The notes beneath the pieces are model-generated. The model was given only the letters and a program-made list of their open reading frames with translations. It had not been told where the DNA came from and did not search any database. Positions 7,893 through 43,078 of a DNA stretch of 64,000 nucleotides are shown in pieces. The position numbers were made by a program, and so were the translations under genes. Numbering within the stretch: the stretch's first letter is position 1; each line of letters opens with the position of its first letter. This stretch comes from an uncultured Lachnospiraceae bacterium (lineage in GTDB: Bacteria > Bacillota > Clostridia > Lachnospirales > Lachnospiraceae), in contig CATLGV010000013.1 of assembly GCA_949948735.1 (NCBI GenBank), forward strand, positions 1 through 64,000. The letters are read 5' to 3'.

Positions 7893-9779
7893 TTATTCCG
7901 CTGCCGGAACGCCTACCGCAACACTAAAAACCTCCCAAGCGCCGCTTGCCTCGCACTGCATCCGCGCGCCCCAGGTCGATACGTCGTCGCCGCACAGCGA
8001 CGCAATCTGCTCATAGGTCAGCTGGCAGACGCTCCCGGTGCAGGACGCGAACACATCACCGTCTCCGTTGCCGACACGCATCCAGCCTGCCGCCGCGTCG
8101 GGAATCACAAGCCACATATCGCCGTTGTCGCTCTTGTAGGTAATCTGTACGACCGCCCCCGGTACCAGCGCATCCAGGATTTCCTGCGGCATGTCAAAGC
8201 CGTTCTGCGCCCAGCCGTCTCCGCTGCACGCAAAGCCCTCAAACGGGGTGTACCTGTTCAGCGCATACATCTCCTGTGCCTTTCCGACCTTTACGCCGTA
8301 AACCTCCCAAGCGCCGCTTGCCTCGCACTGCATCCGCGCGCCCCAGGTCGACACATCGTCGCCGCACAGCGATGCGATCTGCTCATAGGTCAGATAACAT
8401 TTGCTACCGTCGCAGACTGCAAACACATCGCCGTCGCCGTTGCCGACACGCATCCAGCCCGCCGCCGCGTCCGGTATGACAAGCCACATGTCGCCGTTAT
8501 CGCTCTTATACGAGATTTCTACCACAGAGCCCGGCACCAGCGCGTCCAGAATCTCCTGCGGCATGTCAAAGCCGTTCTGCGCCCAGCCGTCTCCGCTGCA
8601 CGTAAAGCCCTCAAAGGCTACCGCGCCCGCTGCCGCAATCGGATTGCTCTTCATGCCGACCTTTACGGAGCTGACCTCCCATGCGCCGCTCGCCTCGCAC
8701 TGCATCCGTGTGCCCCAGGTCGATACGTCGTCGCCGCACAGCGACGCAATCTGCTCATAGGTAATCTGCGCGGTATTTCCCGCGTTGTTGAGATACGCGA
8801 ATACGTCGCTGTCGCCGTTGCCGACGCGCATCCAGCCCGCCGCCGCATCCGGTATGACAAGCCACATGTCGCCGTTATCGCTCTTGTACGAGATTTCTAC
8901 CACGGAGCCCGGTACCAGCGCGTCCAGAATCTCCTGCGGCATATCAAAGCCGTTCTGCGCCCAGCCGTCTCCGCTGCACGTAAAGCCCTCAAAGGTTACC
9001 GCCTTTGTCACCGCATACAGGTTGGAGCGGTCCACATCGGTGCCTGCGGATACATATTCCGCAGAGGTATCTACGGGAAGCACGTTGCCGTCCGCATCCT
9101 TAAAAACGATATTGTCAATGTACAGATTGGCCTGTGCCGCGCCCTTATCCTTGCCGTTGTCCGTTTCCAGAGACACAACGATAAAGTTGCCCGCACCAAA
9201 GGACTGATTATCCGGAACCGTATAGCTTGCAGTCTTTGGATTGCCGTTTTCCAGATAAACCGACCACGCTTCGTTTGTCTTCTTATTCTCCTCGCCTACA
9301 AACCCGTAAATATTGCCGGAGCAGGCAAAGAACTGTCCATCAGGGTTCTCCGTCCCAATCGTCATTTCAACCGTCTTAAGCTTCGCCGCATTCTCTCCCA
9401 GAAGGACATCCGCCTGGATACCGACGAACGGGAGCCTGCCCTGCGTCGTCACCTTCAATGCCTTGGAACCGTTGTAATCCTCCAGAGAAAACACCGAATC
9501 GTCCGCGCCGCCGCTCGCCGTCTTGTCGTTCCCGACAAATCCGAACAGGCCGTCCTCGAAATCAATGCTCACCTCTCCCGGGGCCGCCTGCGCCTCGGGC
9601 GCTTTTTCCTCATTTGCCTCTGTCTGTGCCGTCGCGGTGCTCACCTCCGATGCCTGCTGTGTTTCAGGCGTATCGACGCTCGCGTCCTGCGCGTCCTTCC
9701 CCCCGCATGCGCAGAGAGAAACACTCATTGCCGCGGATAATAAAAGCGCTGCCATTTTTTTTGTCTTCAACCTTCTCAT
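7893..9779 (-). CDS. Surface lipoprotein with three near-identical ~125-residue repeats
   Basis: A 628-residue predicted lipoprotein (AMSVSLCACGG lipobox, then a Glu/Ala/Thr-rich linker). Residues about 68-235 look like a beta-sandwich carbohydrate-binding module (IDFEDGLFGFVG, ending in NLYIDNIVFKDADG). Three tandem copies of an unrecognised domain follow, each with FEGFxCSGDGWAQNGFDMP, YKSDNGDMWLVIPDA, TYEQIASLCGDDVSTWG and RMQCEASGAWEV. Three Cys per copy are conserved. The copies differ mainly in a short loop before TYEQIA and in the linkers. It sits between a permease pair and a binding protein and probably helps capture glycan at the cell surface (inference). GGAGG abuts the ATG at 9779; a TTG at 9770 with 9-bp spacing is a plausible true start. 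Confidence 0.85.
   Translation of the reverse strand: MRRLKTKKMAALLLSAAMSVSLCACGGKDAQDASVDTPETQQASEVSTATAQTEANEEKAPEAQAAPGEVSIDFEDGLFGFVGNDKTASGGADDSVFSLEDYNGSKALKVTTQGRLPFVGIQADVLLGENAAKLKTVEMTIGTENPDGQFFACSGNIYGFVGEENKKTNEAWSVYLENGNPKTASYTVPDNQSFGAGNFIVVSLETDNGKDKGAAQANLYIDNIVFKDADGNVLPVDTSAEYVSAGTDVDRSNLYAVTKAVTFEGFTCSGDGWAQNGFDMPQEILDALVPGSVVEISYKSDNGDMWLVIPDAAAGWMRVGNGDSDVFAYLNNAGNTAQITYEQIASLCGDDVSTWGTRMQCEASGAWEVSSVKVGMKSNPIAAAGAVAFEGFTCSGDGWAQNGFDMPQEILDALVPGSVVEISYKSDNGDMWLVIPDAAAGWMRVGNGDGDVFAVCDGSKCYLTYEQIASLCGDDVSTWGARMQCEASGAWEVYGVKVGKAQEMYALNRYTPFEGFACSGDGWAQNGFDMPQEILDALVPGAVVQITYKSDNGDMWLVIPDAAAGWMRVGNGDGDVFASCTGSVCQLTYEQIASLCGDDVSTWGARMQCEASGAWEVFSVAVGVPAAE
7911..8993 (-). 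repeat. Three long tandem repeats inside the lipoprotein gene
   Basis: The motif encoding FEGF recurs at 8243, 8615 and 8993, giving periods of 372 and 378 bp. Long stretches are identical or nearly so between copies, for example the DNA encoding the CSGDGWAQNGFDMPQ segment. The high nucleotide identity suggests recent duplication or ongoing gene conversion. Copy number could vary between strains. Confidence 0.9.
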
Positions 9780-32493: not shown

Positions 32494-33813
32494 TTATCCT
32501 AAACGCGATGCAATCCCTTCATTCAGCCTGTCATAGGATTCCCAATATTCCTTTTTAACAGGAATCCCTGCTTCTTTTATCAGTTCCTTAATGACTGCAA
32601 AAATTCCCTGTGCCGATTTGCCTGTTTTTTGCAAAAACCATTCGTCCGTAACCGCCACAATATCGTGCGCAGCCACATTACGCACCGCGCCTTCTATCTC
32701 AACAATCTCACAAACCTTCTGCTTTAATGCGGAATCGCTGATTTTACCGCCAATTATCTGCGCAATGTGATGGGAATAAACCGGTCCCTCCCGAAAACCC
32801 CCGCTATACGCCTTATCCAAAACCGTAAGCAGCCCTGCCTGATCAAGCTTTTTTCTGCTCCACCTCATAAGCCCCTTCGAATCCTCTGTACAGCAATCCC
32901 GCAGGGCAATGCCACATTTGTTCTGCAGAATATTTTCCATTAAATCGACCACCAACGGCGTAATGCCCCTGATAAAATCCGCATACTCCTGTTTTTCTAT
33001 TTTCATTTGCAGGACAAGCGCATACTCGAATATCTTCTGCTTATTGCCTTCCTTTATCGGATAAATATCCTGCGACGTCCCTGCTGTTAATTGGCTGATT
33101 TTTGAACGATTGAGCTTCACTCTCGCATCTGCAATCTGCAAAAGCCGATATGCCTCCTGCGATATATCTTCCCGGATTTCTTCGGCAACGGATAGCGCGG
33201 CCGTATAATCATAAGCCCTGATATGCTTTTTAATCGCATCTATCTTCAGCATCCTGATCAGATGCAAACAATGCACCTCGCTGCATCGGCTTGGCGCATC
33301 TTCATTATTGTCCTCATTTAATTCCCAGTTCAGCTCACAGTCGTATTCTTCCCTGTCCTCATACTGGTTGTTCATTCTACCCTGCGGCGTCGCTACCTGT
33401 ATCGGCTTAAACCGGTACTCCGCCAATGTCGCGATAATCAGCAACGCGCTCTTCATCGCAGGCGTTCCGGACGCCATATTCAGCAGCAATTCATCCTCTT
33501 TTTCCATTTCGCATTCGATTTTGTGAAGCTCTTCCCTGAAATCCTGATAGAATACGTCATATTGCTGTACATTCACCAGCTCGTTCCGCTCAATACATCT
33601 CACCTCAAAAAAATGCCCTAAAAACGCCCCCAGTCGTTGAAGCGCATCTATATAACGATTGTCTTTTTGATGATATGCCATCATCTCATGTGATAAGTAT
33701 AAATATACGATATCCGGCCGGTAATGGCGACAAACATGAAGCATGGATCCATCCCTCAGATATTTTATCGGATCCGTACCCCCTACAGGACTAAACAATA
33801 TTTTCCTGCCCAT
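32494..33813 (-). CDS. csm6: Csm6, CARF-HEPN ribonuclease of the type III-A CRISPR system
   Basis: A 439-residue protein. The N-terminal CARF domain (MGRKILFSPVGGTDPI; LLNMASGTPAMKSALLII at about 110-127) should bind cyclic oligoadenylate made by Cas10. The C-terminal HEPN domain carries the R-x4-H ribonuclease motif Arg378-Asn-Val-Ala-Ala-His383 in GAVRNVAAHDI. On activation it degrades RNA without sequence choice and slows the cell during infection. It is the last gene after cas1-cas2, 11 bp after the cas2 stop. AGAGGAGAG precedes the ATG. Confidence 0.92.
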   Translation of the reverse strand: MGRKILFSPVGGTDPIKYLRDGSMLHVCRHYRPDIVYLYLSHEMMAYHQKDNRYIDALQRLGAFLGHFFEVRCIERNELVNVQQYDVFYQDFREELHKIECEMEKEDELLLNMASGTPAMKSALLIIATLAEYRFKPIQVATPQGRMNNQYEDREEYDCELNWELNEDNNEDAPSRCSEVHCLHLIRMLKIDAIKKHIRAYDYTAALSVAEEIREDISQEAYRLLQIADARVKLNRSKISQLTAGTSQDIYPIKEGNKQKIFEYALVLQMKIEKQEYADFIRGITPLVVDLMENILQNKCGIALRDCCTEDSKGLMRWSRKKLDQAGLLTVLDKAYSGGFREGPVYSHHIAQIIGGKISDSALKQKVCEIVEIEGAVRNVAAHDIVAVTDEWFLQKTGKSAQGIFAVIKELIKEAGIPVKKEYWESYDRLNEGIASRLG

Positions 33814-33824
33814 CTGGCTCTCCT

Positions 33825-34154
33825 CTAAATTACAATAATGTCTTCTCTTTCATTTTCGGCAGGTCTGCCAAAATTCGTAACCTGCCCCTTGCCAATAATT
33901 TTATAAACTCTAATACTATCCTGCGTTGATGTATAGGCCGGCAGACGTTCCAATAATTCATTATACTTTTTCCTTGGTATCACCGCTTCGAAAGCGGACT
34001 TTTGTATCCGAAAACCATACCCTAATAACAATTTTGACAATCGCAGACGTTTCCTGTTATCGGCAATATCATAAATAATCAACACAAATACCCTGTCGTT
34101 TTCAGGATTATCGTCTATTTCAAAAAAATAACTTTCTTTTTCCAATCTGCTCAC
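33825..34154 (-). CDS. cas2: CRISPR-associated endonuclease Cas2
   Basis: A 109-residue protein with the Cas2 ferredoxin fold signature VFVLIIYDIADNRKRLRLSKLLLGYGFRIQKSAFEAVI. The Asp in YDIADN is the usual metal-site residue. Translation starts with GTG, overlapping the cas1 stop by four bases (GTGA). This gives a 21-residue extension before the core; similar extensions occur in other type III Cas2 proteins. It partners Cas1 in spacer capture, but cas1 is frameshifted here. Confidence 0.93.
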   Translation of the reverse strand: MSRLEKESYFFEIDDNPENDRVFVLIIYDIADNRKRLRLSKLLLGYGFRIQKSAFEAVIPRKKYNELLERLPAYTSTQDSIRVYKIIGKGQVTNFGRPAENEREDIIVI

Positions 34155-35151
34155 CTGATTTCTATCGGTTTGTATATTGAAAAATCCTCCTCCTCAATCG
34201 CTTTTACCAATGTATCCATCTGCAAAACAATTGCTCTGCGGAAGCTTACCGGATAATCAATATAACTTAAATATCTTACATCGGTCTGCAACTTTTTCTC
34301 CAGCTTCGACAAATACTTTTTAATCCCATTTTTCGTCAAATAACATCCCGGGACGTCCAAATCTGTCACAAAGTCCTCCTTTTGAATTTCATGCCCGTTT
34401 ATCATACTCATAACGGTAGAATCCACAATCACAGCACGCCATTCTTCCATCATATCACTCGCCAGCGTGGGGTGCTTCTCTTTATCCCTATGCATAAAAC
34501 CAAAATACGGATTTAATCCTTTCGCTTCTATTGCGCCATACAATTCATTCATCAAAACAGAATACCCAAGGCTGAGCATAGAATTAAATTCATCCCGCGG
34601 TGGTCTTTTGTTGCGCCCCCGAAATGTAAATTTCGGTTCCACCAGCACAGACAGTCCTTCAAAATATGCCTTCGCGGCCTGCCCCTCATACCCCATCAGC
34701 TCCGGTATTGCTTCGCAAAAAGAAATTTTCTCCCTGCATATCTGTATCATTTTCACGGATTCGTCTACGATAGCATTTCTCCCCCTTTCATACCTTCTGA
34801 GCACTACCATTTGATTCTTTAGCTTTGCACGCAGAATATTCCGGGAAAGTTTCAGAGAAAAGTCCGTTTCGTATAAAGCGCATTGCCGCCTCTGTCTCCT
34901 TGTATTGACATGCCCCGTAGATTGCAACCGGCCAAAATAACTGCCGCCCTTCGAAAAATAAGCTATAGATATGCCGCGATTAAAGCATTCCACAATGCAT
35001 TGCGTCGTAACCTGGGCCTTCCCCATAATAGTAATACCTTCAGCGTCTCTATGGGAACCGCTTTCCTCATCCCATCTGCGTATTTCACCACACATTGGTT
35101 GGACTCAATGCCTACCGTAGCATTGTTTTCATTTATATACAGCAGACTCAT
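34151..35151 (-). pseudogene. cas1: cas1, disrupted by a one-base frameshift near residue 37
   Basis: Frame one starts at 35151 (GAGGAGGGAGAGAA ribosome site) and reads MSLLYINENNATVGIES to RKAVPIETL. Frame two picks up at EGITIMGKAQVTTQC and runs to 34151. Intact Cas1 proteins read straight through VP-ETLEGI, so one base is missing after the Leu37 codon, at 35040/35041. The repaired protein would have 333 residues, normal for Cas1. The catalytic half is intact: Glu in MNELYGAI, His in FGFMHRDKEKHP and Asp in LASDMMEEWR. No slippery heptamer is present, so programmed frameshifting is unlikely. Either adaptation is lost or this is a sequencing error. The downstream frame could still start at an internal ATG. 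Confidence 0.88.
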
Positions 35152-35212
35152 TTCTCTCCCTCCTCAAACTTATTCACCGATTGCGACAAACGCTGTATCG
35201 CCAGATTAAGCA

Positions 35213-35246
35213 GTTTTCATCCCCTACAAGAGCTTATTTCTCAAAT
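35213..35246 (-). repeat. Fossil CRISPR repeat upstream of cas1
   Basis: The plus strand reads GTTTTCATCCCC then TACAAGAGCTTATTTCTCAAAT. Aligned to the array repeat (GTTTCCGTCCCC...GCTTATTTTCCAAAT), it keeps both flanks and loses the GGGG half of the stem. It lies 62 bp from the cas1 start and about 710 bp from the last recognised repeat. It is probably the remnant of a once longer or second array. Confidence 0.7.
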
Positions 35247-35330
35247 CTTCGCAGCTTTCTCAATCGTGAAAAGGGAAGCTTAATTTTACAGTACATTCAC
35301 CCCTATTTGATTGCTATATGGTCGCTATCA

Positions 35331-35360
35331 ACTCAAATTATCTTGAATTAACTCGAATTA
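35331..35360. repeat. Triple 10-bp direct repeat upstream of cas1
   Basis: Three head-to-tail 10-mers: ACTCAAATTA, TCTTGAATTA and ACTCGAATTA. The exact 10-bp period puts them on the same face of the helix. They lie 180 bp before cas1. A regulator-binding array is one reading. Confidence 0.6.
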
Positions 35361-35419
35361 TTTCATAACCAACTGAATTTTCTGTCTTCCATGTTATATA
35401 TATTATAAACATAAAAGGG

Positions 35420-35494
35420 AGTACTCGCCCACAAAGTGGTCAGCCTCCTGAAGACCTAAAGTCTACCTGTACTGGCCAAGTGACAAGGCAGGCT
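35420..35494. other. Candidate structured RNA or mobile-element end
   Basis: Nested complementarity in 75 bp: AGTAC (35420) with GTACT (35469), CCAC/GTGG, AGAC/GTCT and AGCCT (35442) with AGGCT (35490). The AGTAC and AGCCT pairings cross, which would make a pseudoknot. The stretch is more GC-rich than its flanks. I do not recognise it as a known RNA family. Strand of transcription is unknown. Confidence 0.35.
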
Positions 35495-35774
35495 TATTTA
35501 TTTTCGCTTGTTGTTCCTATCAGTATAACATGGGCGCTTCTATACGACAAGATATTCTAAATTTCTTGCTTTATCAGGTTTTATCACAGGCTTCCCTGTT
35601 CTCTTAAATTGTGTCATTATTTTTAACTACGAACTCAAAAATAGACCTCTGTCGCACCAACCAACATTTTTCAGCAAAAACACACCAATACTGCACTTAA
35701 AAGCGCCACAATTTATAAGAATAATGGCCCTTTTGCAGTTTTTAACGCTGCTCAATCAAAATTTGCCCACTTTG

Positions 35775-35939
35775 CTAGTGTACCGACCCGTTCATTTTCA
35801 GCTAGATGACGCAGAATAAATTTTCAGTCTGCAAGGCGGCTGAATGAGGCGATGCGGTAGCATCGTCGATTGAAGCCAACGTGACAGATGGAAATTCAGG
35901 CAAGTCATTTGGTGAAATATGAACAGGTCAGTACACTGG
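35775..35939. mobile_element. MITE-like 165-bp imperfect hairpin element
   Basis: The left end CTAGTGTACCGACCCGTTCA matches the inverted right end CCAGTGTACTGACCTGTTCA with few changes, and the match continues for about 36 bp per arm. Inside, the arms go on pairing (CAGTCTG with CAGATGG region) to the apex GGCGATGC-GGTA-GCATCGTC. The whole unit could fold into one long stem. It has no ORF. It stops about 20 bp before the degenerate end repeat of the CRISPR array. A non-autonomous transposable or palindromic repeat element is the best reading; target duplications were not clear. Confidence 0.7.
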
Positions 35940-35958
35940 TCTTCTCTACAGAAACTGT

Positions 35959-36632
35959 ACTTCTGTCCCCTTACGGGGGCTTATTTCCCAAATAGGCGGA
36001 AAAGCACTTAAAGAACGGAACGATAGTATTGTTTCCGTCCCCTTCCAGGGGCTTATTTTCCAAACAGCAATATCTATTGGCATTATGTTGACAGATGGTG
36101 GTTTCCGTCCCCTTACGGGGGCTTATTTTCCAAATAAGACGGTGAAACATTTTACGGCGCATATAATTGTTTCCGTCCCCTTACGGGGTTCTTATTTTCC
36201 AAATACGTGACGGCCTTTCGCCTGAACTGGAAAATAAATTTCCGTCCCCTTACGGGGTTCTTATTTTCCAAATTTGCGGGAAAGGATATTTTTTACATCT
36301 CCGCGGATCTGATTTCCGTCCCCTTCCGGGGTTCTTATTTTCCAAATACTACCAGCCTACTCATGCTGTGATAAGCAACCCATTTCCGTCCCCTTCCGGG
36401 GTTCTTATTTTCCAAATTACCACGATTTTTCGCAAACAGCTTGATGTGGCATTGTTTCCGTCCCCTTACGGGGGCTTATTTTCCAAATCAGGGCCCCGGC
36501 TCCATCATGGAAACCTCGTCCCTGGTTTCCGTCCCCTTCCGGGGTTCTTATTTTCCAAATGCGGATGGAAGACATGGAAAAAGTTACAGTAAACCGGTTT
36601 CCGTCCCCTTCCGGGGTTCTTATTTTCCAAAT
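35959..36632 (-). CRISPR. Type III-A CRISPR array, 10 repeats and 9 spacers
   Basis: Repeats (plus-strand positions): 35959-35993, 36031-36065, 36101-36135, 36169-36204, 36238-36273, 36312-36347, 36382-36417, 36454-36488, 36525-36560, 36597-36632. They are 35 or 36 bp; spacers are 33-38 bp. The transcribed strand is minus: read that way repeats end ACGGAAAC, the usual type III 5' tag, and contain a CCCC-loop-GGGG hairpin. The repeat at 35959 is the most degenerate, so it is the trailer end, and the leader is at the 36633 side. Two repeat versions are mixed along the array: 35-mers with GGGGGCTT and 36-mers with GGGGTTCTT. The loop is GTAA or GGAA on the minus strand. Confidence 0.97.
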
Positions 36633-36770: not shown

Positions 36771-37889
36771 CTATACAGATTTTATCTTTTCAATCCTGCA
36801 CAGCCCCATCTGGTACCGCTTCCCCTGATATCTTGTACATTTCAGGATATGCGGTGAAGCGCCATAGCTTCCGTCCCTATCATGTTTATGTACTCTGGGA
36901 ACATTCGTCTTACCAAATATCCTTGGGATTATATCCAGACCTTCCTTTTTCCCATACATCGGATAAACGATGGTCTTTGATACGAAACCGCACCCTCCGC
37001 CACATAGGACATAATTCATTTTCGGGGGCTCCACACCTGTAAATGCCATCGCAAAGTTTTTATAATAACTTTCCATAAAAGTCTTTACCGCTTCCATCAG
37101 GGACTTCCCTGTCACATTGCAGATACTCATATCCACAGCAACAGAAAACCTTATCTCTGTGTCGGGCCTGATGCATTCTCTTAATAAAGGAAGCTTTGTC
37201 TCCGTTCCGTCCGTATGCAGCTCGATCTTCTGACATAGCACCAGTTCATCCACGGACAGGGGGGCACTGTCACTGACAATGAAACCCTGCAAAAAGTCAT
37301 TCACCGCATCGCCATGTCTTGTACCTTCACGCCTTAATATTCGGTAAGCATGGTTTTCAATATCCAAAACGTCCTTCTTCAAATACCGGTTTCTGCTCGT
37401 ATTGATATCCGCGTTTCTTTTCAGCGCTGCCTTTTCCTGCTGGTACTTCTCCGGCCGTTTCAAAATATCCTCACCCAGCAGTATTGTCCGGAACATTCCC
37501 TTTAACGAACTCCCGGGAATATAAGGGTTACCATAAGCGTCCTTTATACACGCCATAACCTGCAGCCTGTTTGTCGTATCCTCGTCAATGGAATCACCAC
37601 AGTCCAGACTGTATTTCAGAAAAGGCTGTATCTCCTCCAGCCTGATATTCTGCCTTTTAAGCCATACCGCAAGCCCCATGCGGTTCGGCCCCAATAAGTA
37701 CTCCTCGAAAGCCGCCTGTTTTTGCCTTTCGGACAATTCCCTGTATAATCTCTGAATGTCGGGAATCCCAACCTGCTTTCGATCTAAAAATACATATTCC
37801 TTTTTCCCGATTTCCTTGCCGCTTCCCACAAATACAGGGCCGACTGTACGCATAACCACCTGATAGCTTTTCAAATATTGATTATTCAT
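36771..37889 (-). CDS. csm5: Csm5, type III-A effector RAMP subunit
   Basis: A 372-residue RAMP protein that caps the crRNA 3' end in the Csm complex and helps crRNA trimming. VMRTVGPVFVGSGKEIGKKEYVFLD and PYIPGSSLKGMFRTILL are Csm5/RAMP signatures; FVSKTIVYPMYGKKEGLDI lies near the C-terminus. The ATG overlaps the csm4 stop (ATGA) with GGAGGTAGG inside csm4. It is the last cas gene before the leader. Confidence 0.93.
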   Translation of the reverse strand: MNNQYLKSYQVVMRTVGPVFVGSGKEIGKKEYVFLDRKQVGIPDIQRLYRELSERQKQAAFEEYLLGPNRMGLAVWLKRQNIRLEEIQPFLKYSLDCGDSIDEDTTNRLQVMACIKDAYGNPYIPGSSLKGMFRTILLGEDILKRPEKYQQEKAALKRNADINTSRNRYLKKDVLDIENHAYRILRREGTRHGDAVNDFLQGFIVSDSAPLSVDELVLCQKIELHTDGTETKLPLLRECIRPDTEIRFSVAVDMSICNVTGKSLMEAVKTFMESYYKNFAMAFTGVEPPKMNYVLCGGGCGFVSKTIVYPMYGKKEGLDIIPRIFGKTNVPRVHKHDRDGSYGASPHILKCTRYQGKRYQMGLCRIEKIKSV

Positions 37890-38821
37890 ATGCCTACCTC
37901 CATCAGCATTGGTTTTGCATAACGATAAACCGGGTGTCCGCCGTCCCCGCCTGAAACATCATAGATATCGCCCTGATATCTGGCCGCGACGCAAGCGCCG
38001 GCCTTCAACACATACAAATCCCTTTTCCGCATTTGCTTTGACGCATATTGTCCAGACGCAACAAAACCGCTTCTTTTACAAAGCATATATTCTGCTCCCG
38101 CCAATACCGCTTCCAGCTCGTCAGCCCTTGGCAGAGACACGGACAACGACATATAACACGCGCCCATCCTCTCAAGACGCTGCCAAATCTCTCTGGGCAG
38201 ACGCTCCGAGCGCACTTCAAACCGCCCTAACCCCGACGCCCGCTTTCCGCCTATTCCGCTGAAGGATAAACTCTCCATCAGCTTGTCCATCAATTCCAGC
38301 TGTGCCTGATTCTGATATCCCGCAATAATATACACCCCGTTGCCCTTATTATAATAATAAGTTCCTATCCGGTAAGGCTTTGTCTCCTCTTCCCCACGAA
38401 TCGAAGCCACTGCCTTCATTTCAAAATATCCCAACCGGTCAATATCCTTTGATTGGACGCCACATATATCATAGCTGCCTGACAAATAAGCCTCCATTGC
38501 TTCCAGCGGGATATACCTTAATTTTTTATAGGCCTTTTTTACCGCAGAATCGCCCTTGTTGTTTACAGCCTCTATACGTTTCATCGGTTTTGGGAGATAA
38601 TATGTACCGCCGATATAGGGAAACGCATCCGATAATAGCAGAGACCCGTTTAGCGCATCCTGATAAAATCGCTGCAGCACATCCTCTCCCTGTTTTAATG
38701 CCTCCTGGCACAATGCGGAAAAGAGCGTATCCGCACAAAACGTATATTCCCCATCCTCCAGACTTCGCCCGCCAAAATGAACTGCTCCCAGAAAACTTAA
38801 CTTATACACCTTATAGTTCAT
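37886..38821 (-). CDS. csm4: Csm4, type III-A effector RAMP subunit (Cas5-like)
   Basis: A 311-residue protein that binds the crRNA 5' tag and docks Cas10. The N-terminus YKVYKLSFLGAVHFGGRSLEDGEYTFCADTLFSALCQEAL is characteristic of Csm4, and the glycine-rich SFSGIGGKRASGLGRFEV is the RAMP loop. It overlaps csm5 by four bases and starts 5 bp after csm3 with GGAGGGAG ahead of it. Confidence 0.93.
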   Translation of the reverse strand: MNYKVYKLSFLGAVHFGGRSLEDGEYTFCADTLFSALCQEALKQGEDVLQRFYQDALNGSLLLSDAFPYIGGTYYLPKPMKRIEAVNNKGDSAVKKAYKKLRYIPLEAMEAYLSGSYDICGVQSKDIDRLGYFEMKAVASIRGEEETKPYRIGTYYYNKGNGVYIIAGYQNQAQLELMDKLMESLSFSGIGGKRASGLGRFEVRSERLPREIWQRLERMGACYMSLSVSLPRADELEAVLAGAEYMLCKRSGFVASGQYASKQMRKRDLYVLKAGACVAARYQGDIYDVSGGDGGHPVYRYAKPMLMEVGI

Positions 38822-38826
38822 GCCTA

Positions 38827-39504
38827 TTACTCCCTCCAGGCTTCGGCCGCACTTTGCAGCACATGGTTACATTCCGCAATAATTTCATCCGCCACGGTTC
38901 CCACAACTGCCCTTGCACACATATCCCGAAACACAATTTTGCCATATCCTCTGGAGCCGTTTCCTCCCAGATAGTCATACTGCATCAGCCTTATCCCCTC
39001 CGCAAGAACAGTCATATCTTCGATTGCCTCATCCTCCTCTTCCATCTCATACATGATGTCTACCCCAAAGAGCGAGCCTCGAATCACACGCTCAATTTGT
39101 CTGGGATTCGCAACCGCCGTCACCCTGTTAATCGTATTTTCAAACTTAATTTCCGTCAATCCCTGCAGACCTTTTTCTCTTAATTCTGTTTCATTTAGCA
39201 AGAACATGTCCGATATCAGTACCCTGCTTCTTTTTACCTGCTTCTCCTTTGCGCAGCCAAACAGCCGTGTTAAGCACGGCGCATCTTCATCCGGTTTTTT
39301 TGCTGCCTCTGTATTATATTCTTTAGCCAGCAGCGAGCGCATTTTCCCCTTCAAGGAGCTTCCCGGTATCATCGGCTGATTCGTCCGGGCGTCCTTGATT
39401 ACGGGGGAATCCACGGCCCCGATCGCAGCAAAAGCAGATGAGCCGCCAATATGTATACCTGTTTTTATTTCTATTGTTCCCGTTATCTGAATCTTTGCGT
39501 ACAT
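38827..39504 (-). CDS. csm3: Csm3, backbone RAMP and target RNA nuclease
   Basis: 225 residues. Csm3 subunits line the crRNA and cut target RNA at 6-nt intervals. IQITGTIEIKTGIHIGGSS, GAVDSPVIKDARTNQPMIPGSSLKGKMRSLL (including the catalytic-type Asp in VIKDA) and YDYLGGNGSRGYGKIVF are typical. The ORF track begins at 39537 inside csm2; ATG 39504 follows AGGAGGGAAAAGC and matches the family start MYAKI. Confidence 0.95.
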   Translation of the reverse strand: MYAKIQITGTIEIKTGIHIGGSSAFAAIGAVDSPVIKDARTNQPMIPGSSLKGKMRSLLAKEYNTEAAKKPDEDAPCLTRLFGCAKEKQVKRSRVLISDMFLLNETELREKGLQGLTEIKFENTINRVTAVANPRQIERVIRGSLFGVDIMYEMEEEDEAIEDMTVLAEGIRLMQYDYLGGNGSRGYGKIVFRDMCARAVVGTVADEIIAECNHVLQSAAEAWRE

Positions 39505-39517
39505 AAGCTTTTCCCTC

Positions 39518-39910
39518 CTAATTTTCCCTACCGCCATGGAATTTATGAAACGCTACCAATGCTTCCATATATCGGTTAAATAATATGTAATTATGCTTAC
39601 TGCCTTTTATGGTTTTCAACACGCCAAGAATATCCGCCTTCTCGACCAAGCTTTTCACCGACGGCTCCCTGCCTGCCTCATACAGAAACCTTACCCGCAA
39701 ATACTCAATTCTTGAACAAACCTCTTCACTTAACTTATCCCCGCTTTGATTCATTATTTCGTTATAAATATCCGCCGTAAGCGCCAGCAGGTTTCGCAGC
39801 TTTGATGTCGTCACCATCGGAATCGTGCGTCCATTCTTATCCTTCATATTCTTTAGGTTTATAATAACCTTTTCTGCTTCATCCACATAATTCTGATCAT
39901 TTATCTGCAT
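39518..39910 (-). CDS. csm2: Csm2, small subunit of the type III-A complex
   Basis: A 130-residue, mostly helical protein. VTTSKLRNLLALTADIYNEI and YLRVRFLYEAGREPSVKSLVEKADI are the known Csm2 features. Csm2 subunits form the inner filament contacting target RNA. The ATG overlaps the cas10 end by 14 bp, with GGAGAAGGAGG in cas10. Confidence 0.93.
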   Translation of the reverse strand: MQINDQNYVDEAEKVIINLKNMKDKNGRTIPMVTTSKLRNLLALTADIYNEIMNQSGDKLSEEVCSRIEYLRVRFLYEAGREPSVKSLVEKADILGVLKTIKGSKHNYILFNRYMEALVAFHKFHGGREN

Positions 39911-42281
39911 GCTCTGTTTCCTCCTTCTCCCTCGTCAAATATGCGTACAAATTAATCGCCGTCTTGAGCTGCCTGCAATCCGCTTCGTTTTTTATCCATT
40001 GGTACATCTTTAAGGAAAATTCCCTATAGGCCGCCTTTTGCTCCGGCGGTGCCGCTTTCTCCGGCTCCAACCGTGACAAAAGATATACATACCTCGCAAA
40101 ATTGACCTTCTCTTTCCGGCCGCAAATCAGCTTCAAAAGATGATACAGGAAATTCTTTCCTCTCTCCTCCGATACCGTAAAGAAATGCCGAATCACCTCA
40201 TACTTTTCGCCCAATACAGACTGTTCAAATTCCTGCCAGCAATATGTTCCGTCACTTATACTGCTTTCCGTCCCATCTTCACTTACAACGATATGGCGCT
40301 GCCCATCCTCAAATAATGTCACCGCGTTTTTCCCCGGCAGAGATTTTGACGCATCCTCCAAAAGCGCGACCTCCCGGGCAATGGCACTGATAGGGTATCC
40401 GGATGCATAGACGCCAATGCTGGCCGACAGGGTCAGGGTTCCCTGCGTATACCGTTCGAAGGCTCTTCGTATATCAACCGCAAGCTCTATCACCTCATTC
40501 CATGCGCCCACAATAAACAAATCATCTCCGCCAGAATAACAAATCGTCACATTTCGCGCCCCGACAGATTTTCCATCCAGGGAATAAGCACCTTCCTGCA
40601 ATATTTGATTGATGTGCAGTTTAAAGAACAGTGAAAGCTGTCGTGATAATACCGCCGTCCTTGACAGGGTCACATACCGATTATGGTTGGCGGGATTCTC
40701 AAAGCCCGAAACAAATGCCTGCCCCAAATTATCTACGTCCGCACGGATAACCCCTATCCGGTCAATCCCCTCCGCCTCTGCGGCATAGGCCTCAAAGGTT
40801 TTCTTGCTGCTGTAATCGCCCACCCACAGCTTGGTAGCGATATGCCTGCCGGTAAACATCCTGTTTTTGCTATATGCCCGAACAAAGCAATCGTCCCGCT
40901 GCATCTTTTCTTTTAAGGAATTGCCATCGTCAGACACAAGGTAATATCCCTCGGGGAGCGGCAGCGCATTTTCCGATTTCTCCAACGTAACCGTAAAAAA
41001 TCCATCTTCCAAAATATTCCTTGAAAATCGTTCTATAGCCTTACAAAGCGGACATATACCGTCTTCGTTTACCTTTGCTATTCTTTTGCAAACCTTACAC
41101 TCTCTTGTATAATCCATGTGCACTCTGGCGTTGAACGCCACAATATCAGCACTCGTATATCTGCGGCTTTTTCTTTGGGATATTTCATCCCCTGCCTGTC
41201 GAAATATTTGGGCGTAACTCCCTTCCGGTACATTTTTAAGCGAATCTGTGCTGCATGGAGCGCATCCCCATGCTACGTACAGGGATATATCAAACCACTC
41301 TGCCAGCCAGTGATTCAGCCGGTTCATATACTGATTTGCCGCCGCTTGGGCGCTCCTTGTATTTGGTATTAAAATATAGCAATGCCCTCCTCCCGAATAA
41401 ATCAGATTTGCCCTTGAAAGCTGCAGCTTTGACAGCAGGCTGTCTATAATATGCTCCATCATAATCTCCAGATAAAAGGAACGGGCACGCAGCGTCTTTA
41501 ACGCATTCTTACTTATAATCGTATAGATAAAATCCTGTATCCCCGATATGTCCGCTGAAAATAACAAAAACGCCTTTTCTTTGTAAAAATCGCTTCCTTT
41601 CTCAAGCAGCCTTGTTTTGTAATCCTTTTCCCCCTGCTCCTGTAAATACGCATAAATGCAGCTTGCTACCGCCGCCGTAAGCTTCACATGGTCAAACAAC
41701 GAAATATCCGCCGTCTCGCTCTTTGCAGTGGAAGCCGGCACATAAGAAAGATTTGCCTCCAACACCTCCAGTAAAGAATTGACATATTCGTTCGTCCACT
41801 CCATCCCCCTGAGATTATCCGTTAAATGAAGCTTTACCTCTGTATAAAACGGTTCGTCATATTTTTCTCTCTTTTCATCCGGATAAGGGATCCTGCCTTG
41901 GACATCCAGCATTCCCGGATCATAACAGTATTCTCCCCTGTTTCCGTTCAGAATATTGAACACGCTTTGCAATGGCATGGACAATTCAAATCCTACATCC
42001 TCCGAATCATTTTGCCGTCTGTCCGCAGCCGATGAAATATTGTCCGCAATATAAATAATGTATGCCAACGAATCCCTGTCAATTTTTGCTCCCTTTATCG
42101 CGTCAGCATGGTGGTATCTCACGCAGTCCAATACCCCGGTATCAGAAATATGTATCTCATCCTTTAAAAACTCATACCCGCTTAAACTATGTTTCCGCTT
42201 ATCTGTGCCCTCACGGTAGATCACTTTCCCAATATCATGCAGCAACCCGCCCAAAACAAGCGCAATCTCCCTGTCCGTCAT
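39897..42281 (-). CDS. cas10: Cas10/Csm1, cyclic oligoadenylate synthase and DNase
   Basis: A 794-residue large subunit with all expected active motifs. The HD nuclease motif is at His15-Asp16 (GGLLHDIGKV). A Palm-1 region carries FSADISGIQDFIYTI. The zinc finger is Cys395-x2-Cys398 with Cys410-x2-Cys413. The cyclase motif Gly-Gly-Asp-Asp at 584-587 (CYSGGDDLFI) should convert ATP to cyclic oligoadenylate when target RNA is bound. Csm6 downstream is the likely receiver. It overlaps cas6 by ATGA. Nothing suggests inactivation. Confidence 0.96.
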   Translation of the reverse strand: MTDREIALVLGGLLHDIGKVIYREGTDKRKHSLSGYEFLKDEIHISDTGVLDCVRYHHADAIKGAKIDRDSLAYIIYIADNISSAADRRQNDSEDVGFELSMPLQSVFNILNGNRGEYCYDPGMLDVQGRIPYPDEKREKYDEPFYTEVKLHLTDNLRGMEWTNEYVNSLLEVLEANLSYVPASTAKSETADISLFDHVKLTAAVASCIYAYLQEQGEKDYKTRLLEKGSDFYKEKAFLLFSADISGIQDFIYTIISKNALKTLRARSFYLEIMMEHIIDSLLSKLQLSRANLIYSGGGHCYILIPNTRSAQAAANQYMNRLNHWLAEWFDISLYVAWGCAPCSTDSLKNVPEGSYAQIFRQAGDEISQRKSRRYTSADIVAFNARVHMDYTRECKVCKRIAKVNEDGICPLCKAIERFSRNILEDGFFTVTLEKSENALPLPEGYYLVSDDGNSLKEKMQRDDCFVRAYSKNRMFTGRHIATKLWVGDYSSKKTFEAYAAEAEGIDRIGVIRADVDNLGQAFVSGFENPANHNRYVTLSRTAVLSRQLSLFFKLHINQILQEGAYSLDGKSVGARNVTICYSGGDDLFIVGAWNEVIELAVDIRRAFERYTQGTLTLSASIGVYASGYPISAIAREVALLEDASKSLPGKNAVTLFEDGQRHIVVSEDGTESSISDGTYCWQEFEQSVLGEKYEVIRHFFTVSEERGKNFLYHLLKLICGRKEKVNFARYVYLLSRLEPEKAAPPEQKAAYREFSLKMYQWIKNEADCRQLKTAINLYAYLTREKEETEHADK

Positions 42282-43078
42282 TCAAGCCGCCCCCCTTTTT
42301 CTTTTGCAAATGTACCCTTAACAGGATTACCCTGTCCCTGCGCGGGACTCTTTATCCGCAGCGCCCCCATCCCAATCGCCGTTTTAATTCCTATGCCGGA
42401 ATATTCCCCAAATCTCGCCAGCAGCTTTGCGTATTTTGCCATGGTCTCTGTCCCTGTTATTTTTATACCGATTTCTCCTTTGAACGAGGGTATCTTAATC
42501 CCCTCCATCGGAAAGAAAGCGCTTCTTAACCTGTATTGTACAATACGGCTATTATTTACCAATTGCTCCAGCGTCTCCTCGTCATACATTTCCATGTCCG
42601 AGGAGGCCGCGCTGTACTTATTCATAAGACTTTGATAGATATACCGCGTATCCGGCATAATGATATATTGGCCATTGCTTTTAAACGCGGTCGGCGTTAT
42701 AAACTCCAAATTCAAATACCGGCTGAATTGTGCCGCATAAAACTCATTCATCAGCTCCTGTCTGCTCGTCGTCCTAAGCTCTTTCGAACAAACCGTTATA
42801 TTTGCGCCGCCCTTTTCCAAAGTCATCTGACAAAAGCTTTCGTCCAGAAGCGGCAGTATTATTTTGTGATATGCCTCCAGCGTATAGGTATTTACCACCC
42901 ATTCATACGATTCTCCTGATACAATATACTGACTATACGGCTTCAATCCCTGCTGGTGCAGCTGTTGCGCGTATTCGCTGTCAAGCTGTTCCATCAAAAT
43001 CCCCTGCATATTCGACGACTGATAATAGCCAAACTCTTTTTTATTGATTTCCAGTCTCATTTTAAGCCTTGCCAGCAT
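42278..43078 (-). CDS. cas6: Cas6 CRISPR RNA endoribonuclease
   Basis: A 266-residue protein that cuts the repeat transcript to leave the 8-nt 5' tag. The C-terminal glycine-rich loop GIGIKTAIGMGALRI is the Cas6 signature, preceded by KITGTETMAKYAKLLARFGEYSG. The N-terminal half is less conserved and has no obvious catalytic His; catalytic residues in Cas6 vary. First gene of the operon, behind a consensus promoter and GGATGGAGG. Confidence 0.9.
   Translation of the reverse strand: MLARLKMRLEINKKEFGYYQSSNMQGILMEQLDSEYAQQLHQQGLKPYSQYIVSGESYEWVVNTYTLEAYHKIILPLLDESFCQMTLEKGGANITVCSKELRTTSRQELMNEFYAAQFSRYLNLEFITPTAFKSNGQYIIMPDTRYIYQSLMNKYSAASSDMEMYDEETLEQLVNNSRIVQYRLRSAFFPMEGIKIPSFKGEIGIKITGTETMAKYAKLLARFGEYSGIGIKTAIGMGALRIKSPAQGQGNPVKGTFAKEKGGRLE

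Follow-up and report, generated by a model that had tools for sequence, protein, structure and literature searches.

The window analysed here, a stretch of 64,000 nucleotides of DNA from an uncultured Lachnospiraceae bacterium, carries a type III-A (Csm) CRISPR–Cas locus with the gene order cas6, cas10, csm2, csm3, csm4, csm5, array, cas1, cas2, and csm6. Its features, all on the minus strand, are as follows.

42278..43078, minus: cas6 (TIGR01877; 57.2 bits, just under the cut-off of 58.65)
39897..42281, minus: cas10/csm1, with HD and GGDD palm (TIGR02578, 7e-230)
39518..39910, minus: csm2 (TIGR01870)
38827..39537, minus: csm3 (TIGR02582)
37886..38821, minus: csm4 (TIGR01903)
36771..37889, minus: csm5 (TIGR01899)
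35959..36632, minus: CRISPR array, 10 heterogeneous repeats of 35/36 nt and 9 spacers
35213..35246, minus: degenerate repeat remnant between the array and cas1, found as a repeat match
34963..35151, minus: cas1 5' fragment, 37 Cas1 residues followed by an out-of-frame tail (62-aa ORF)
35040..35041, minus: site of the missing base in cas1, directly after codon 37 (CTG)
34151..35041, minus: cas1 3' fragment in the other frame, residues 38–333 with all catalytic residues
33825..34154, minus: cas2, intact (TIGR01573)
32494..33813, minus: csm6, with CARF and HEPN, intact (TIGR02672, 2e-149)

Every gene except cas1 is a single open frame matching its NCBIfam model, cas6 only slightly below the cut-off. 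The assignment to type III-A is supported by the palm GGDD and HD of Cas10/Csm1, the open csm2–csm5 genes, the CARF and HEPN domains of Csm6, and the associated array. Active-site motifs were also located in Cas10 (HD and GGDD), Csm3, and Csm6 (RxxxxH of HEPN), so that the view of the initial annotation that cas2, cas10, and csm6 are preserved is upheld by open frames and NCBIfam matches and, for Cas10 and Csm6, by motifs.

The cas1 gene runs from a start at 35151 to a stop at 34151 on the minus strand, and in the adaptation module cas2 is open and cas1 is not one open frame. Read from the ATG at 35151, the first frame gives MSLLYINENNATVGIESNQCVVKYADGMRKAVPIETL (37 aa), before it departs from the Cas1 frame and ends at 34963; the second frame, EGITIMGKAQV and onward, begins at 35041 and reaches the normal stop at 34151 after 296 residues with no other stop, and matches NCBIfam TIGR00287 (7.6e-78). 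As the intact reference we used cas1 of a congener (MAG JAMPFV010000022.1, Roseburia sp. NALB_7863_22; genome G009). The window gene has 1001 bp against 1002 bp in the congener, with 82% nucleotide identity over the whole gene, and blastn revealed a single 1-nt gap across 1002 columns (window CTG-AAGG, congener TTGGAAGG). With the intact congener Cas1 as the tblastn query, two segments were obtained in adjacent frames (residues 1–48 and 38–333), the second being 89.9% identical. The catalytic Glu, His, and Asp are all present (GYEGQ, FMHRDK, and ASDMMEEW). Thus, the frameshift proposed from the letters alone, with one base gone after Leu37, is borne out by the blastn gap and the split tblastn frames; its position (35038–35046, start 35151), the VPIETL and EGITIMGKAQV frames, and the preserved catalytic residues were likewise correct, and the alignment of the two frames to a III-A Cas1, suggested as a check, returned one Cas1 split over adjacent frames.

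Cas1 might still be made from the split gene, as a working or N-terminally truncated product, if ribosomes shifted frame or re-initiated at the internal ATG of residue 43 (MGKAQV): all catalytic residues lie in the second frame, which is open throughout, and a weak GAAGG precedes this ATG by about 10 nt. However, there is no slippery heptamer at the gap site (35041/35040), and the split is missing from all intact relatives and is therefore not a conserved recoding site; programmed ribosomal frameshifting was rejected on these two grounds. Loss of 37–42 residues would also take away part of the N-terminal beta domain of Cas1, which provides dimer and Cas2 contacts. Production of Cas1 by either route is thus very improbable, and, as judged from the sequence, Cas1 activity appears to have been lost.

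Alternatively, the missing base may be a sequencing or assembly error, with the III-A cas1 intact in the cell. The draft state of the assembly (68 contigs) leaves room for such an error, as does the lack of decay past the shift. There, dN is 0.06 and dS 1.3, and synonymous and nonsynonymous codon changes stand at 37:11 along the window branch and 38:14 along that of the congener; selection is therefore not relaxed downstream of the shift, which means that the III-A lesion is either very young or an error. As a control, 882 kb sampled from the genome were compared with 1.2 Mb from the congener; within the roughly 212 kb of coding sequence common to both samples (198 genes), no clean single-base frameshift was seen other than that in cas1, and a sequencing error at the gap is hence possible but unlikely. 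Two other multi-frame candidates, inspected fully, proved to be a conserved upstream region or extension and an antisense shadow ORF, neither a clean frameshift, and three more were judged by coordinates only as a csm6 start extension, a multiply decayed ORF, and a short low-coverage ORF. The lack of a homopolymer at the gap also speaks against an error, as do two observations described below, namely a net deletion of about 113 nt in the second cas1 of the genome, beyond what base-call error makes, and the distinct cas1 lesions carried by sister III-A loci.

In the III-A array, the 35- and 36-nt repeat variants alternate without steady decay from the leader. This heterogeneity was rejected as a sign of stalled acquisition, because the array of the congener with intact cas1 is heterogeneous too. 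The remnant at 35213–35246 is the best ungapped repeat match in 35152–35958 (22/35, reached by 0 of 300 shuffles) and is perhaps the trailer end of a formerly longer array. When searched against about 0.9 Mb of the genome itself and the other loci fetched, the nine spacers matched only themselves, and 24–25-nt cores from six of them had no exact match in viral contigs.

Only one more cas1 was recovered in the genome, in a type I-C locus on another contig (G000:C18:9322-17560; L081 3323-11561), and it is broken as well: a net deletion of about 113 nt has removed residues 168–211 and changed the frame. The I-C cas3, cas5, cas8c, cas7, cas4, and cas2 genes are all open. The I-C array consists of two repeats and one spacer, these being the only two copies of the I-C repeat in the whole assembly, whereas congeners with intact cas1 at the corresponding locus have 9–46 repeats; the low counts, obtained from fetched stretches with a fixed mismatch limit, may fall short of the true numbers. 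Among the I-C loci of the genus, Csd1 and Csd2 are each open in 12 of 12. The I-C count leaves out an I-C-like locus of genome G001 on contig C1, with cas5 and cas7 matches and no cas1 match in the 18 kb fetched, and the I-C contig of genome G005, which stops short of cas1. The initial annotation had described the III-A locus, should the frameshift be real, as locked against new spacers, and this description is strengthened by the finding that the only other recovered cas1 is broken and the I-C array is down to one spacer.

A further possibility is that acquisition proceeds in trans, with another cas1 lying on a plasmid or in the unassembled 16% of the genome. Some CRISPR–Cas loci without adaptation genes are described as borrowing them from another locus (PMC8092290), and type III subtypes without adaptation modules have newly been described (PMC12669027); moreover, a third cas1 could have been missed because the draft genome is only 84% complete. 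On the other hand, both cas1 genes found are broken, and an assembly-wide search gave no further III-A or I-C repeats beyond the two loci. We consider acquisition in trans improbable, and neither system is therefore expected to learn, unless a third cas1 resides in the absent 16%.

The comparison of cas1 among relatives, suggested at the outset for sister strains, found the gene intact in the congener and independently damaged in sister species. Among 13 related III-A loci, cas1 is intact in eight and broken in five, the window included, by five different lesions.

Window: one base missing
G005: stop codon, and nothing of Cas1 left beyond residue 81; cas2 lost, with csm6 directly adjoining
G006: reduced to residues 164–310 next to a Uma2 gene; C-terminus and cas2 gone
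L035: frame-changing internal deletion
L036: frameshift, stop, and truncation

Of the effector genes that could be scored in these loci, 0 of 52 were broken, against 5 of 13 for cas1 (Fisher p 1.6e-4, uncorrected for relatedness among loci that are phylogenetically non-independent, several of them MAG contigs). Apparent csm3 stops in two relatives fall at natural C-termini and were dismissed, and genome G037 was left out since its Cas10 belongs to a different, distant type III locus. Across 397 Lachnospiraceae genomes, about 14 cas1 genes adjoining csm6 are open and only the window copy is frameshifted, so that the pattern is local to the clade, not general; several csm6 loci in these genomes have no cas1 nearby.

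Other cas1 remnants were seen in passing. At L077 3059-4720 (G006:C92), a Uma2-family nuclease gene occupies the place of the N-terminal half of cas1. L013 has an intact cas1 and, at 8259-8457 between cas2 and csm6, a second, decayed cas1 remnant. L083 3732-4181 (G001:C72) holds a C-terminal cas1 piece (Pfam Cas_Cas1 positions 191–253) whose N-terminal half is apparently gone; the next feature is a short ORF, perhaps cas2. Two weak cas7-type matches occur in G016 (C14 and C39; L236 and L237), a genome in which no cas1 was found.

Collectively, these results are best explained, with a probability of about three in four, by a recent and real loss of cas1 in both CRISPR systems of one lineage, with interference kept, within a clade that is losing cas1 repeatedly. 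In this reading, the III-A cas1 was lost to a recent one-base deletion and, in the same genome, the I-C cas1 to a separate internal one, while the cell would continue to express crRNA from the nine III-A spacers together with Csm6 and the Cas10-containing Csm complex. New spacers would no longer be integrated in either array, and the immune memory of the genome is probably frozen. From its intact genes, the III-A locus is predicted still to interfere and signal. Presumably, these gut Lachnospiraceae can do without acquisition or pay a cost for it, and so lose cas1 repeatedly while retaining the effectors. Since repeated independent loss of cas1 accompanies constrained effectors, at least weak selection is favored; the stronger proposal, that spacer acquisition is selected against in this gut clade in favor of a fixed inherited repertoire, is made only tentatively. 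If acquisition is indeed lost repeatedly with interference kept, learning spacers can cost more than it gives in the gut, and the intact congener and the broken lineage offer natural pairs for testing the cost of acquisition, for example through self-targeting.

The III-A locus of the congener JAMPFV010000022.1 has the same gene order (cas6-cas10-csm2-5-array-cas1-cas2-csm6), and its other III-A genes share 73–89% protein identity with those of the window, but its cas1 is one open frame and the window cas1 is one base short. Type III loci without adaptation genes (PMC12669027) and degraded or truncated cas1, as in type I-B of Bacteroides fragilis (PMC5704556), are already known, and the broken window cas1 is therefore a new case of a known kind. 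Like the type III-G and III-H loci (PMC12669027), the window retains interference genes and has no working acquisition genes; unlike these loci, which are of a different subtype, its adaptation genes are present and only just broken, as in a snapshot of the transition. The truncated I-B loci of B. fragilis (PMC5704556) resemble it in their truncated cas1, although most effector genes are also lost there and only cas1 is affected here. The unusual features here are the double hit on cas1 within a single genome and the different fates of cas1 and the effector genes.
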